Source: Candidatus Zixiibacteriota bacterium (GTDB taxonomy: Bacteria; SM23-81). Taken from it: a stretch of 7,225 nt of DNA. The stretch lies in NCBI GenBank assembly GCA_030628225.1, contig DAOVRJ010000122.1:1-7225 (forward strand), in the 5' to 3' direction. Below, piece after piece: positions 367-6,099 of this stretch; the stretch's first letter is position 1; every line of letters begins with the position of its first letter. The notes under the pieces were generated by a model, which searched no databases, was not told the origin of the DNA, and saw only the letters and a program-made list of their open reading frames with translations. The position numbers and the translations under genes were made by a program.

Positions 367-382
367 AGGAAGGAGTTCCTTC
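367..382 (+). promoter_or_regulatory. Shine-Dalgarno site within a small hairpin
   Basis: AGGAAGGAG at 367-375 lies seven bases before the ATG at 383. It is the only strong ribosome binding site near the beginning of the open frame and decides the start codon. The bases GAAGG (369-373) can pair with CCTTC (378-382) around an AGTT loop, so most of the site sits in a 5-bp stem that ends directly at the start codon. The stem is short, and whether it matters for translation is unknown. Confidence 0.7.
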
Positions 383-3300
383 ATGCAGAGAAAGCTCATC
401 TTGGGCGCCGTGTGGGCCTTGATCTTACTCGTTGCCCAGGGCGCTGGAGCCGACCGGTTAACTTTCACCATGACCGCCGGCCCTTACCAGATCGCCGAGA
501 CCGATGAGGGCTTTCAGCGGATCGAGATGGCCGGCTTCGACCAGCTGCAGGTCCCCGGAAAACCCATGTTGCCCGTCAGACAGTACCACTTCGCCCTGCC
601 CCCTGGAGCTCAGGTGACCGGGGTGAACATCACCGGAGATGGTCGAGCCGTCCAGGAGGGTACCTACCGCATCGAGCCGGCTGCGGGCGTCATTCGCCAA
701 AGCGATGATGAGCAGGCAGTACAGGAGAGCAAGAGGAACTGGCAGACCAGCTACGACGCCGTATACCTCTCCGATGTCCTGTTCCCAGAACAGGCAGGAG
801 AAGATCTGGGCGTTGGCGGGCTGCGCAAATACACTCTTTTGCGAGTCGCCTTCTATCCCTTCGCCTACCGGCCTATATCCGGGCAGATCGCCTTCACGCC
901 CAGGGCCACCGTAGAGGTGAACTACCGGTTGGTTTCCCCGGGGGGCGAGCAGGACAGAAGGGTGCAGAGATCCCTGACCGACCGGGTGAGCGAGGACCGG
1001 GCGGCAGAGCTGCTGGACAACTACGATCAGGCCCGGACCTGGTACACCCCGGCTACGGGAGCCTCGGCGGCCAAGTCCACCTACAATTACGTGATCATCA
1101 CCACGACCAGCCTGGAGAGCGCCGTCTCGGACCTGGTGGACTGGAAGGAGGATATCGGCCACACAGTCAATGTGGTGACCACAAGCTGGATCTCCAGCAG
1201 CTACTCCGGCTGGGATCTGGTGGAGAAGATCCGCAACTTTCTCATCGACAAATACATCGATTGGGGCATCGAGTACGTGCTGTTGGCGGGCAATATCGAC
1301 GTCATTCCCATGCGATATTGCTATCCGGATGGCCATTCCAGCGCCACCCCCACAGACTACTATTACGCCGATCTCACCGGGAACTGGAACTCCGATGGCG
1401 ACGGGTATTACGGCGAGTTTGGTGAGGATGATGTCGATTTCATCGCCGAGGTCTATGTGGGACGCATCCCCTGGAGCAGCTCTACCACCCTCTCGAACAT
1501 CTGCGACAAACTGGTGGCCACGGAGAGCGACACCGGCAGCTGGAAGGACAACGCTCTGCTTTTGGGTGCCTTCACCAACTTCGCCAACGAGGATCACTCG
1601 GGATGGCCCGCCACCGATGGAGCATATTTAGGGGAGACACTGATCTCCGGGGTGCTCACCGGCTGGGGCACCACCACCATGTACGAGAAATCGGGCCTGG
1701 CCACCTCCTCTTTCTCCTGCGATTACCCGCTGACCCGGACCAACGTGACCAGCCAGTGGTCGGCCAACGACTACGGGATCGTGGCCTGGGCGGCTCACGG
1801 AGGGTCGAACGCCGCATATAGAAAATACTGGTACACCGATGACGGCGACGGCGTGCCCGAGGGCGGTGAGATGAGCTGGCCGATCTTTATCAACAACGAC
1901 GACGTCACCTCTTTGGACGATGATCACCCCTCCATCGTCTTCTGTGCCTCGTGCGAGAACGGGCACCCCGAGTACTCTCACCTGGCCCGGGAGCTGATCA
2001 AAAATGGGTCCGCCGGCGCGGTGGCCGCCACCCGGGTATCCTGGGGCATCGTGGGCTGGACAGACCCGGACGATGGCGGGAACGACTCTTTCGCCTACTA
2101 TTTCTACGACTACCTGATCAACCGGGGCCAGAAGACGGGTCCCGCCCTGTACAACTCCAAGTATTACTGCAAGACCCACATGTGGCAGAACTGGCAGAAC
2201 ATGTTCGTCTTCTGTCTTTACGGCGATCCAGGTTTGGACCGGGTGGGCATGGCTCCCACCCCCCAGGTCCTGGCGGTGACTCCCCATCCCAACGTATACG
2301 TGGTCTCCCCGACGAGCGATGTCTCGGCCAGCTTCGACCGCCCCATGAATGTGGCCACCTTGAATGACACCACCTTCCGGGCTTATGGCGATCTGGGCGG
2401 CCGCTATCAGGGATCTGTCGGCTACGACGCCAACACCCGGACGGCGACCCTGAATCCCAGCGGCGATTTTCTGGCCGGAGAGGACATCCGGGTCATGGCC
2501 AGCTCGTACATTTTCTCGCAAGGGGGCACGTCGGTAAGCGGCGGGCACTCGTGGTTCTTCCGCATCAAGGCGCCCGGAGGAAGCGGATCTTTTGGGGAAG
2601 ACAGCACTTTCGGCTCGGGGATGGACCCCGGCGCCATCTGTTCCGGGGATTTCGATGGCGATGGCCATGTGGACTTAGCGGTGGCCAACCTGAGCCTGGA
2701 CAATCTCTCCGTGTGGATCAACGATGGCAGCGGGGCATTCTCCCTGGATGCCACGTACGGGGTAGGAGGCGATCCCAGAGGGATGGCGGCGGGCGATCTG
2801 GACGGCGACGGTTATTTAGATCTGGTGGTGGCCGACTCCAGCGACCATCAGATTTCCGTGCTGATCAATGACGGAGATGGTACCTTCGCCGCTCATCAGA
2901 CCTACGGAACGGGGCAGAGACCGCGGGCCGTTTTTGTCGCCGACCTGGACGGAGATGGCTATCTGGACGTGACCACGGCCAACAGCGGTTCCGGCAACCT
3001 CTCCGTGCTGATCAATGACGGGGACGGCACCTTCGCCGCTCATCAGACCTACGGAACGGACAGTGCCCCGCGCTCCATCTCCGGCGGCGATCTGAACGGG
3101 GATGGCCATGTGGATCTGGTGACGGCCAACTACAGCTCCGGCAACGTCTCGGTGCTGATCAACGACGGGGACGGCACCTTCGCCGCAGACGTGACCTACG
3201 CCGTGGGCGATGGTCCTCACTGCGTCTGCGTTGGTGATCTGGAGGATGACGGCATCGCGGATCTGGCGGTGGTCAACAGGAACTCGGACAACGTGACCAT

Positions 3301-5332
3301 ACTATTAAACGGGGGAAACGGGGATTTCTCCGTGGACGGCAACTACGCCGTGGGCGATGAACCTCTATTCCTCTGGGTAAGCGACCTGGACGATGACGAG
3401 GATGGCGATCTGATGGTGGCCAGCCGGGGCGCAGATCAGGTCTTTGTCCTGCTGAACATGGGCAACGGCAGCCTGGAGAGTGCCACCGGCTACGGTGTGG
3501 GCGATAACCCCGTTGCTTTGTGCGGCGGCGATTATGATGGCGATGGAGATCTGGATCTAGCTACAGCCAACACGGGTTCCAACGATATCTCCGTGCTCTT
3601 TAATATCGACGCCCTCGAGGTGGCGATCACCTCACCGGCCAGACATGAAATGGATGTGCCGGCCGGCACCGAGATCACCGCCCGGTTTAACAGCGCGGTG
3701 GATAGCACCACGTTAAGCGATTCTACCCTCTTTGTCTGTGGCTCTCTGACAGGCCGGCACTGGGGTCAGGTGGAGACCGGCTCAGACGACTCCACTATTG
3801 TTTTTGATCCTTTTATCTCATTCTCCGCCGGTGAAGCAGTAACCACAATTTTAACCACCGGGGTGAAGAGCAGCATCGGCACGCCCATGAACACGGGATA
3901 CCAGTGGTCATTCTTCGTGGCCACGCAGGGCAATGGAGTGTTTGATGAGGACTCGACCTTCTCGGTGGGCGACTCACCCCAGGGCATCGTCGCTGCCGAT
4001 CTGAACGGCGATGGCCACATCGACCTGGCCACGGCTAACTATCTGATCAGCTCCGTGGGTGTGCTATTTAACCAGGGAGATGGCACTTACCAGTTAGACA
4101 GCCTGTACAGCGTAGGCTATGGTCCCGTTTGCGTTTGCGCTCTGGACCTGGAGGGAGATGGAGATCTGGATCTGGCCTCGGCCAACGCCTATGCTGGTAC
4201 CATCTCCATTCTGCTCAACAGCGGCGGCATCTTCTCCACCGACGCCACTTACACGGTCGGGGTGAGCCCCTATTCTATATGCACCGCCGATTTGGATGGC
4301 GATGGCGATGAGGATCTGGCAGTGAGCAACGCGAACGATGACAATGTCTCCATTTTGCTGAACCAGGGCGACGGAAGCTTTGCCGCCCCGGTCACCTACG
4401 CCGTTGGGTGGATCCCTCGAGGAATTTGCGCCGGGGATGTGGATGGCGATGGAGACGCAGATCTGCTGGTGGCCAATTACGAGGCCAACACCCTATCGGT
4501 GCTGACTAACAGGGGCAACGGCATCTTCACAACGCAGCAGGTTTACTCCCTGAGCGGAAGTCCTCGTTCTCTGGGGATTGGCGATCTGAATGGCGATGGC
4601 CATTTGGATGTTGCTCTTGGAGACTACAACGAGAACTTGATCTCGGTGGTCTTCAACCAGGGAGATGGCTCCTTCGGGCCGGACACTGCTTACGTGGTGG
4701 AAGGCGGGCCCACTTGGCTTTTTGTAGGAGACCTGAATGGCGATGGCTACCAGGATCTGGCTGTCTCCAGAGCTCCTGGGAATGACGTGCTGATCATGAA
4801 GAACGACGGCCTGGGCCTTTTCCCGGATCAGCAGGCCTATGAGGTCGGTAACAACCCTCTGGGCGTATGCGCAGGCGATCTGGATGGCGATGGCGCCCTG
4901 GACCTGGCCGTGGCCTGCTACAATGACGATCTGGTATCTGTGCTGTACAACTCCAGCAGTGGCTGGCCCCCAGCGGCTGTCTCGGATCTGACGGCTACCC
5001 TGGCGGGCAACGCCCTGCATCTGAGTTGGCAGGCTGTTACTGCGGACGAGGGCGGCAATCCAATCACCGTGGACCACTACACCGTGTATCGCCATATCGA
5101 TCCGCGTTTTGTCCCGGTCGCCGGAGACTCCATCGGGAGCACCGCCGAGACGTACTATGACGACCCCGCCGCCGCGCTGAAGGACCCGGGCACAAACCAC
5201 TACTACGTGGTCAAGGCCGTCGATTCGCAGGGCAGAAAATCAGCGGATTCCAGCACGGTGGGTGAGTTTGATAAAACGCTTCTGGAAACGGCTAAGGGTA
5301 AGGGGGAGGGCAGCAAGGTGAAAGGGAGATAG
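383..5332 (+). CDS. Secreted C25 (gingipain-like) cysteine protease with two Big_5 + seven-blade FG-GAP modules
   Basis: A 1649-residue exported protease, numbered from the ATG at 383. That start is chosen because a strong ribosome binding site precedes it and a signal peptide begins at once (basic QRK, hydrophobic core, AGA|D cleavage near residue 23). Residues 24-225 resemble the gingipain propeptide (GKPMLPV at 59-65, strand RATVEVNYRL at 174-183). Residues 234-622 form the C25 catalytic domain. It carries the presumed dyad His472 in AAHGG and Cys524 in CASCENG, ends at YGDPGLDRVG, and has two calcium-like loops (D338/D340 and D486-D489). Residues 624-732 and 1077-1183 are Big_5-like Ig domains. 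Each is followed by seven FG-GAP/VCBS blades (736-1074 and 1184-1523) with DxDxDGxxD loops. Residues 1529-1629 look like an FN3 domain. The Lys/Gly-rich tail shows no T9SS C-terminal domain, LPXTG or dockerin, so its anchoring is unclear. Peptide specificity cannot be read from the sequence. The gene is monocistronic, with its own terminator 21 bp downstream. Confidence 0.9.
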   Translation: MQRKLILGAVWALILLVAQGAGADRLTFTMTAGPYQIAETDEGFQRIEMAGFDQLQVPGKPMLPVRQYHFALPPGAQVTGVNITGDGRAVQEGTYRIEPAAGVIRQSDDEQAVQESKRNWQTSYDAVYLSDVLFPEQAGEDLGVGGLRKYTLLRVAFYPFAYRPISGQIAFTPRATVEVNYRLVSPGGEQDRRVQRSLTDRVSEDRAAELLDNYDQARTWYTPATGASAAKSTYNYVIITTTSLESAVSDLVDWKEDIGHTVNVVTTSWISSSYSGWDLVEKIRNFLIDKYIDWGIEYVLLAGNIDVIPMRYCYPDGHSSATPTDYYYADLTGNWNSDGDGYYGEFGEDDVDFIAEVYVGRIPWSSSTTLSNICDKLVATESDTGSWKDNALLLGAFTNFANEDHSGWPATDGAYLGETLISGVLTGWGTTTMYEKSGLATSSFSCDYPLTRTNVTSQWSANDYGIVAWAAHGGSNAAYRKYWYTDDGDGVPEGGEMSWPIFINNDDVTSLDDDHPSIVFCASCENGHPEYSHLARELIKNGSAGAVAATRVSWGIVGWTDPDDGGNDSFAYYFYDYLINRGQKTGPALYNSKYYCKTHMWQNWQNMFVFCLYGDPGLDRVGMAPTPQVLAVTPHPNVYVVSPTSDVSASFDRPMNVATLNDTTFRAYGDLGGRYQGSVGYDANTRTATLNPSGDFLAGEDIRVMASSYIFSQGGTSVSGGHSWFFRIKAPGGSGSFGEDSTFGSGMDPGAICSGDFDGDGHVDLAVANLSLDNLSVWINDGSGAFSLDATYGVGGDPRGMAAGDLDGDGYLDLVVADSSDHQISVLINDGDGTFAAHQTYGTGQRPRAVFVADLDGDGYLDVTTANSGSGNLSVLINDGDGTFAAHQTYGTDSAPRSISGGDLNGDGHVDLVTANYSSGNVSVLINDGDGTFAADVTYAVGDGPHCVCVGDLEDDGIADLAVVNRNSDNVTILLNGGNGDFSVDGNYAVGDEPLFLWVSDLDDDEDGDLMVASRGADQVFVLLNMGNGSLESATGYGVGDNPVALCGGDYDGDGDLDLATANTGSNDISVLFNIDALEVAITSPARHEMDVPAGTEITARFNSAVDSTTLSDSTLFVCGSLTGRHWGQVETGSDDSTIVFDPFISFSAGEAVTTILTTGVKSSIGTPMNTGYQWSFFVATQGNGVFDEDSTFSVGDSPQGIVAADLNGDGHIDLATANYLISSVGVLFNQGDGTYQLDSLYSVGYGPVCVCALDLEGDGDLDLASANAYAGTISILLNSGGIFSTDATYTVGVSPYSICTADLDGDGDEDLAVSNANDDNVSILLNQGDGSFAAPVTYAVGWIPRGICAGDVDGDGDADLLVANYEANTLSVLTNRGNGIFTTQQVYSLSGSPRSLGIGDLNGDGHLDVALGDYNENLISVVFNQGDGSFGPDTAYVVEGGPTWLFVGDLNGDGYQDLAVSRAPGNDVLIMKNDGLGLFPDQQAYEVGNNPLGVCAGDLDGDGALDLAVACYNDDLVSVLYNSSSGWPPAAVSDLTATLAGNALHLSWQAVTADEGGNPITVDHYTVYRHIDPRFVPVAGDSIGSTAETYYDDPAAALKDPGTNHYYVVKAVDSQGRKSADSSTVGEFDKTLLETAKGKGEGSKVKGR
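2588..3604 (+). repeat. First seven-blade FG-GAP/VCBS propeller (coding repeat)
   Basis: Protein residues 736-1074. Calcium loops begin at D756, D805, D854, D903, D952, D1001 and D1050, so every step is exactly 49 residues (147 bp). The blade consensus is D-L-D-G-D-G-x-x-D-L-x-x-A-N, then SVLINDGDGTF, then TYGVGxxP. The region opens with the second half of a blade (GSFGEDSTF) and closes with a first half (ISVLFN), the expected 'velcro' arrangement of a closed seven-bladed beta-propeller as in integrin-alpha-type FG-GAP folds. Blades 5 and 6 have altered loops (DLEDDGIAD and DLDDDEDGD) but keep acidic residues at positions 1, 3, 5 and 9. Confidence 0.85.
2855..3186 (+). repeat. Near-identical 147-bp DNA repeat copies in blades 2-4
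   Basis: The 58-bp segments at 2855-2912 and 3002-3059 differ at only three positions, all synonymous third bases (gga/ggg, gat/gac, ggt/ggc). They encode the same residues, SVLINDGDGTFAAHQTYGT. A third copy at 3152-3186 matches the second across about 35 bp with one change. The offset is exactly 147 bp each time. Other blades share only the protein pattern, so these copies are younger than the rest of the propeller or have been homogenised by gene conversion. Confidence 0.85.
3932..4951 (+). repeat. Second seven-blade FG-GAP/VCBS propeller (coding repeat)
   Basis: Protein residues 1184-1523. Calcium loops begin at D1206, D1255, D1303, D1352, D1401, D1450 and D1499. All steps are 49 residues except one of 48, where blade 9 has the short turn LLNSGGIF in place of LLNQGDGSF. 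As in the first propeller, it opens with a half blade (NGVFDEDSTF) and closes with LVSVLYN. Together with the Big_5-like domain in front, it lies about 450 residues after the equivalent positions of the first module (Big_5 tryptophans at 724 and 1175). The two modules therefore look like an old duplication. Confidence 0.85.
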
Positions 5333-5353: not shown

Positions 5354-5385
5354 AAAGCCGGCCCCCACATGGGGGTCGGCTTTTT
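5354..5385 (+). terminator. Rho-independent terminator of the protease gene
   Basis: AAAGCCGGCCCCC (5354-5366) pairs with GGGGGTCGGCTTT (5371-5383) around an ACAT loop. The stem is 13 bp with one G·U pair (5361 with 5376) and is followed by a T run ending at 5385. It begins 21 bases after the stop codon. Read on the other strand, the G·U position becomes an A-C mismatch and the T run is interrupted, so it should act mainly on plus-strand transcripts. Confidence 0.93.
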
Positions 5386-5386
5386 A

Positions 5387-5445
5387 GCGGCACCTGCGGT
5401 GTCGCAATTTGAAATGAATCTTTTGGAGGGGGAAGTTTCCCCCTC
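5387..5445. repeat. Two further hairpins after the terminator
   Basis: GCGGCACC (5387-5394) pairs with GGTGTCGC (5398-5405) with one G·U pair and a TGC loop. GAGGGGGAA (5426-5434) pairs perfectly with TTCCCCCTC (5437-5445) across two bases. Neither is followed by a T run, so neither is a typical terminator. They may be extra 3' structure or parts of intergenic repeats; function is not known. Confidence 0.5.
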
Positions 5446-6015: not shown

Positions 6016-6099
6016 AATCCAGTATCCAGGATCGGTTTTTCTTTTAACGAGTCTCGAATTTCGAATCTCGAGTCTCGGTTCTTCATCCAGTATCCAGTT
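6016..6099. repeat. Degenerate intergenic word repeats (right flank)
   Basis: The 13-mer ATCCAGTATCCAG occurs at 6017-6029 and again at 6085-6097, ending two bases before the stop codon of the minus-strand mutase gene. Between them lies a block of GAGTCTCGA / TTCGAATCTCGAG words (6049-6080). CGAATCTCGAGTCTC (6062-6076) is the exact reverse complement of 159-173, and AATCCAGTATC also occurs at 286-296 in direct orientation. No clear terminator for the minus-strand gene is visible here. Confidence 0.65.

Follow-up and report, generated by a model that had tools for sequence, protein, structure and literature searches.

A 1649-residue protease of peptidase family C25, carrying two successive modules that each consist of a Big_5 Ig-like domain and a predicted closed seven-bladed FG-GAP propeller, is encoded in the 7,225-nucleotide stretch of DNA analysed here (designated as the window). 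The window, from a sediment-type bacterium related to Zixibacteria, corresponds to contig C33 in a draft genome of 2.34 Mb in 306 contigs. The protein is likely a Sec-exported, zymogen-type cysteine endopeptidase whose two calcium-stabilised modules tether it to its substrate or to the cell envelope. The features of the gene and its product are summarised in Table 1.

Table 1 Features of the C25 protease gene (P0001) and its flanks. Positions are those of the window.
Feature	Position	Strand	Residues	Remarks
Shine-Dalgarno-like sequence AGGAAGGAG	367–375	+		7 nt before ATG 383; read directly from the sequence
Whole gene, P0001	383–5332	+	1649 aa	Secreted C25 protease, two Big_5-propeller modules, C-terminal FnIII
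Putative Sec signal peptide	383–451	+	about 1–23	MQRK, hydrophobic stretch, AGA; by reading the sequence
C25 propeptide	428–958	+	16–192	Pfam PF08126, E = 3.3e-9
Peptidase_C25 catalytic domain	1088–2236	+	236–618	Pfam PF01364, E = 3.1e-50
Big_5 Ig-like domain 1	2252–2575	+	624–731	Pfam PF13205, local HMM; beta sandwich in model
FG-GAP propeller 1, seven-bladed	2588–3607	+	736–1075	7 calcium loops, 28 model strands, integrin alphaV match
Big_5 Ig-like domain 2	3605–3928	+	1075–1182	Pfam PF13205, local HMM; model
FG-GAP propeller 2, seven-bladed	3938–4954	+	1186–1524	7 calcium loops, 28 model strands, integrin alphaIIb match
C-terminal FnIII, lineage-specific end	4976–5329	+	last 118	Homologous to 28 other genome matches; FnIII fold
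VGEFD motif	5258–5272	+		19 residues before the stop
Intrinsic-terminator-like hairpin AAAGCCGGCCCCCACATGGGGGTCGGCTTTTT	5354–5387	+		3' of the gene; read directly from the sequence

The residue numbers of the first-pass annotation (W724/W1175, D756/D1206 and the range 624–1523) match the open reading frame starting at position 383. A longer frame from ATG 230 was considered unlikely; ATG 383 has a good ribosome-binding site. The hairpin AAAGCCGGCCCCCACATGGGGGTCGGCTTTTT did not appear among the scan results, probably because its stem extends into the T tract. A phosphomannomutase gene lies downstream in convergent orientation, and no tRNA genes or Rfam families were found in the window. The intergenic regions contain a heptamer repeat, ATCCAG(A/T), at positions 280–292, 6017–6029 and 6085–6097. 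The corresponding pattern ATCCAGWATCCAG had 77 matches genome-wide versus 0 for the reversed control pattern, and stretches near the repeat carry further word-like repeats (TCTCGAATTTCGAATCTCGAGTCTCG and AACTCTCTAAACTCTC).

The catalytic part had been described as a gingipain-type protease, in agreement with the Pfam scores of the propeptide (36.6 bits versus a cut-off of 22) and the Peptidase_C25 domain (171.9 bits versus a curated cut-off of 23) and with the conservation of the His and Cys residues. Specifically, His472 and Cys524 showed no variation among ten divergent C25 domains taken from this genome and others, and they likely form an intact catalytic dyad. By its catalytic domain, dyad and propeptide, the protein is a member of family C25, and proteolytic activity would be expected of it. 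The signal peptide supports export, as proposed for a secreted enzyme. The window genome (G000, 2.3 Mb) has 17 Peptidase_C25 matches, one of which is PorU and several of which have the VGEFD end, and its secretome is rich in C25 proteins. Baltic sediments are rich in C25 genes, and Zixibacteria belong to the lineages there to which exported peptidases were assigned (PMC6365825).

Behind the protease domain, the domain search agreed with the proposed architecture of Big_5 plus seven blades, twice. Pfam assigned FG-GAP_3 to 14 stretches of P0001 (E = 1.6e-96) and Big_5 (PF13205) to two (E = 3.2e-20, 73.3 bits versus a cut-off of 23.6). The calcium loops of propeller 1 begin at residues 756, 805, 854, 903, 952, 1001 and 1050 and those of propeller 2 at residues 1206, 1255, 1303, 1352, 1401, 1450 and 1499, with a period of 49 residues (48 once), and these positions confirm the count of exactly 7 + 7 blades. 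As for the claim that all fourteen are calcium-loop blades, the count holds, but the Dx[DN]xDG motif is canonical in 11 of the 14 loops and degenerate at residues 952, 1001 and 1255. Judged from the motif, the loops likely bind calcium. The first-pass annotation had followed the modules to position 4951; the protein runs beyond this point into the FnIII domain, which was not mentioned there.

An orthologue was found in genome G001, which is very probably Zixibacteria bacterium SM23_81 (contig LJUY01000043.1); the window bacterium would belong to the same family. The orthologue, from a sister genus, is an open frame of 1679 codons. Its domain order is identical, its modules align without gaps, and it likewise has a convergent phosphomannomutase gene as its neighbour. 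The identity is 80% in the C25 domain, 73% and 67% in the propellers, 51% and 64% in the Big_5 domains, and 68% in the queried module. More distant relatives carry the module in other numbers. An ORF of 3907 residues in G056 (C27, locus L069), open at the contig end, contains three consecutive Big_5 plus seven-blade modules of approximately 450 residues each and a fourth Big_5-linked block with six scored blades. No C25 match was detected in this ORF, and it also matches Laminin_G_3, fn3 and beta-helix. One module each was present in G002, G003, G299 and G275, and the seven-blade count was found in most related modules. In particular, the G275 protein (C54) has the order C25, Big_5, seven blades and a FlgD/T9SS-like end, and the order is similar in a G003 protein (P0004, contig C43, locus L187), in which the C25 score is just below the cut-off and the end is a Por_Secre_tail. 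Both share with the window protein a C25 or C25-like domain, Big_5 and seven blades in one ORF, and both differ from it in having a single module and a T9SS-type C-terminal tail. The module has therefore been used repeatedly with a C25 protease.

The first-pass annotation described the module as duplicated. The architecture does repeat, but the two Big_5 domains are approximately 25–27% identical to each other (E = 1e-12) and were not firmly joined in a tree, and the blades of the two propellers show no positional correspondence. The identity between blades of the two propellers was 40.6% at the same position and 41.7% at different positions, and no circular shift was prominent. The most similar blades are blades 2–4 of propeller 1 (60–66% identity), which points to local blade amplification, a process described for propellers (PMC9218822). 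The most conserved feature of the blades is the calcium loop. A recent origin of the second module as a copy of the first was rejected, since there is no positional blade match and both modules predate the split of the two genera. On these comparisons the modules are homologous, old and diverged, and a simple whole-module duplication was not demonstrated; if one occurred, it took place before the two genera separated.

The structure check suggested with the original claim was carried out with AlphaFold2 on residues 614–1649, using five aligned rows. A two-module slice of the G056 protein, which was in the wrong register, was left out of the alignment used for folding. The mean pLDDT was 76, with values mostly 80–92 across the propeller blocks. 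The pTM was 0.48, and therefore the relative domain placement in the model is not trustworthy; the FnIII domain was poorly modelled in this run. As claimed, the model contains two separate toroids, and an Ig-like beta sandwich lies before each of them. The 28 strands of each propeller are arranged as 1 + 6 × 4 + 3 with a “velcro” closure, and the calcium loops are the AB loops, between strands one and two of each blade. A half-blade had been suggested at both ends of each block; the split is 1 + 3 strands rather than half and half. A PDB sequence search with the whole protein gave no match, and the fold comparison was thus made with the model. The top ranks of Foldseek, multi-propeller proteins such as DDB1 and SF3B3, had poor rmsd values and were set aside, and VIA-align was used instead. 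With this method, 319 residues of each propeller were aligned to an integrin: propeller 1 matched integrin alphaV (Z = 34.0, 2.5 Å) and propeller 2 matched integrin alphaIIb (Z = 36.2, 2.2 Å). By their seven repeats, predicted toroidal closure and Dx[DN]xDG motif in the AB loop, the blocks are integrin-type propellers, and the domains ahead of them are Big_5 domains by the PF13205 score and the Ig sandwich in the model.

The repeat run is long and uniform in sequence, as would also be the case for one open VCBS-repeat array. Such an array is very improbable here: a Big_5 domain stands between the blocks, the model closes each block with 1 + 3 strands, each whole block aligns to integrin propellers at 2.2–2.5 Å, and relatives also have seven blades per block. 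The predicted structure is that of two closed seven-bladed toroids and not of an open array, in line with the original reading of two closed, independent propellers. What the propellers do behind the enzyme can be approached from their known counterparts. VCBS-type propellers are typically tied to carbohydrate or protein recognition, often near Ig-like domains (PMC8023676, PMC9218822), and this supports the recognition role favoured here. The protein would be exported by Sec as a zymogen-type cysteine endopeptidase of family C25, and the propeptide may hold the enzyme inactive until cleavage. The propeptide of gingipains is known to keep the enzyme inactive until it is cleaved. Behind the enzyme, the two independent modules of Big_5 Ig domain and closed propeller would form a calcium-stabilised extension, in which the propeller faces most likely bind their ligand twice over, the candidates being a protein aggregate, a glycan or a cell surface. 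Such binding would keep the protease attached to its substrate or to the envelope, in the manner of gingipain adhesin domains and of integrin and lectin propellers. The degeneracy of three of the 14 loops and the pTM were counted against this proposal.

Alternatively, the modules may be passive, calcium-rigidified spacers that carry the protease off the cell surface and have no ligand of their own. Regular blades with the calcium loops as their best-conserved part would suit such a role, as would the reuse of Ig plus propeller units with varied partners and in varied numbers (one in G003, G002 and G275, two here and four blocks in G056). We consider it unlikely, given that most VCBS propellers whose function is known serve in recognition (PMC8023676, PMC9218822) and that a closed propeller would be costly next to plain Ig repeats. 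Even less probable is that the adhesin part is cleaved off the protease and then reassociates with it. C25 enzymes of the gingipain kind (RgpA and Kgp) are processed in this way, and the linkers ahead of each Big_5 domain are candidate sites; against this, single-chain C25 enzymes are common.

The C-terminal domain folds as FnIII; together with the VGEFD end it probably has a role in export or in retention at the surface. Homologous copies occur at loci L010–L034 and L118–L153 besides the one at window 4976–5329. Including this one, 25 of the 29 copies in the genome reach a stop within 13 residues past the match, one copy cut by a contig end being counted out, and most of the copies checked in G001 likewise end close to the stop. 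GEFD is present in 50/59 terminal copies from the two genomes, with a median distance to the stop of 8 residues. The share is biased upward because the G001 copies were chosen by a loose form of the motif. In G001, the VGEFD FnIII caps subtilases, an alpha-amylase, an amidase, an endonuclease I, a PLD-like protein and a C25 protease. At L020, L026 and L028 the FnIII is internal and is followed by 185–194 more residues with mutually similar endings. The source genome has T9SS parts (64 T9SS-tail matches, SprA and PorU). P0001 has no match to the TIGR04183/PF18962 tail, none of the 64 tail matches falls in its gene, and by match coordinates no ORF in the genome carries both the VGEFD FnIII and a T9SS tail. 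The protein is thus not a T9SS cargo of the type A-tail kind; its C terminus is the FnIII domain. In G002 and G003, which belong to the same phylum, all four homologous FnIII copies checked continue into T9SS-type tails. We tentatively raise the possibility, itself rather doubtful, that the VGEFD FnIII serves this lineage as a C-terminal domain for sorting or anchoring, in place of the T9SS type A tail. The domain caps approximately 25–30 proteins here and 30–40 in Zixibacteria SM23_81, among them unrelated enzymes, although classical T9SS tails are also numerous in these genomes and SprA and PorU are present. The pattern may instead be a simple lineage-specific domain expansion. No paper linking Zixibacteria to type IX secretion was found in the open-licence literature.

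The constituent parts of the architecture have precedents. In the excerpts of Chouhan et al. (2011; PMC3192720), bacterial FG-GAP propellers have seven FG-GAP/calcium-loop repeats per domain, and some sequences with 14 signatures were read as tandem seven-bladed propellers; a protease or Big_5 context is not named in these excerpts. Npun_R4253 of Nostoc punctiforme has three propellers in a row, with no C25 domain mentioned in the portion of Rigden et al. (2011; PMC3123361) concerned, compared with two propellers and a C25 domain here. The VCBS core group has a signal sequence, possibly several propellers and mostly Ig-like partners, and the corresponding part of Pereira and Lupas (2021; PMC8023676) mentions no fusion with a C25 protease. 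Tandem propellers and Ig partners have thus already been published, and what appears new is only this C25 protease with two modules. No description of two Big_5-propeller modules on a C25 protease was found in the open-licence literature, and an earlier account elsewhere is possible. Among well-characterised proteins, the gingipains of Porphyromonas resemble P0001 in the propeptide, the C25 domain, the adjoining Ig-like domain and the C-terminal adhesin part. They differ in having Peptidase_C25_C and cleaved adhesin domains, whereas P0001 has Big_5 and FG-GAP propellers and lacks the TIGR04183-type T9SS tail. The likeness to the integrin alpha head lies in the seven-bladed FG-GAP fold and the AB-loop calcium sites (Z 34–36). 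The identity is approximately 16%, the window protein has no transmembrane part or beta subunit, and the Ig partner precedes the propeller here but follows it in integrin alpha.

The unusual C-terminal end may be a more interesting lead than the doubled module. If the FnIII is a sorting signal, the known secretion tails would extend beyond those of the Bacteroidota type. The combination of Big_5 and seven-bladed calcium propeller is a portable module of approximately 450 residues. It can occur more than once in a protein, and sediment bacteria that have received little study have it attached to secreted proteases; this protein is a clean case for asking about the ligands of integrin-like propellers outside animals.
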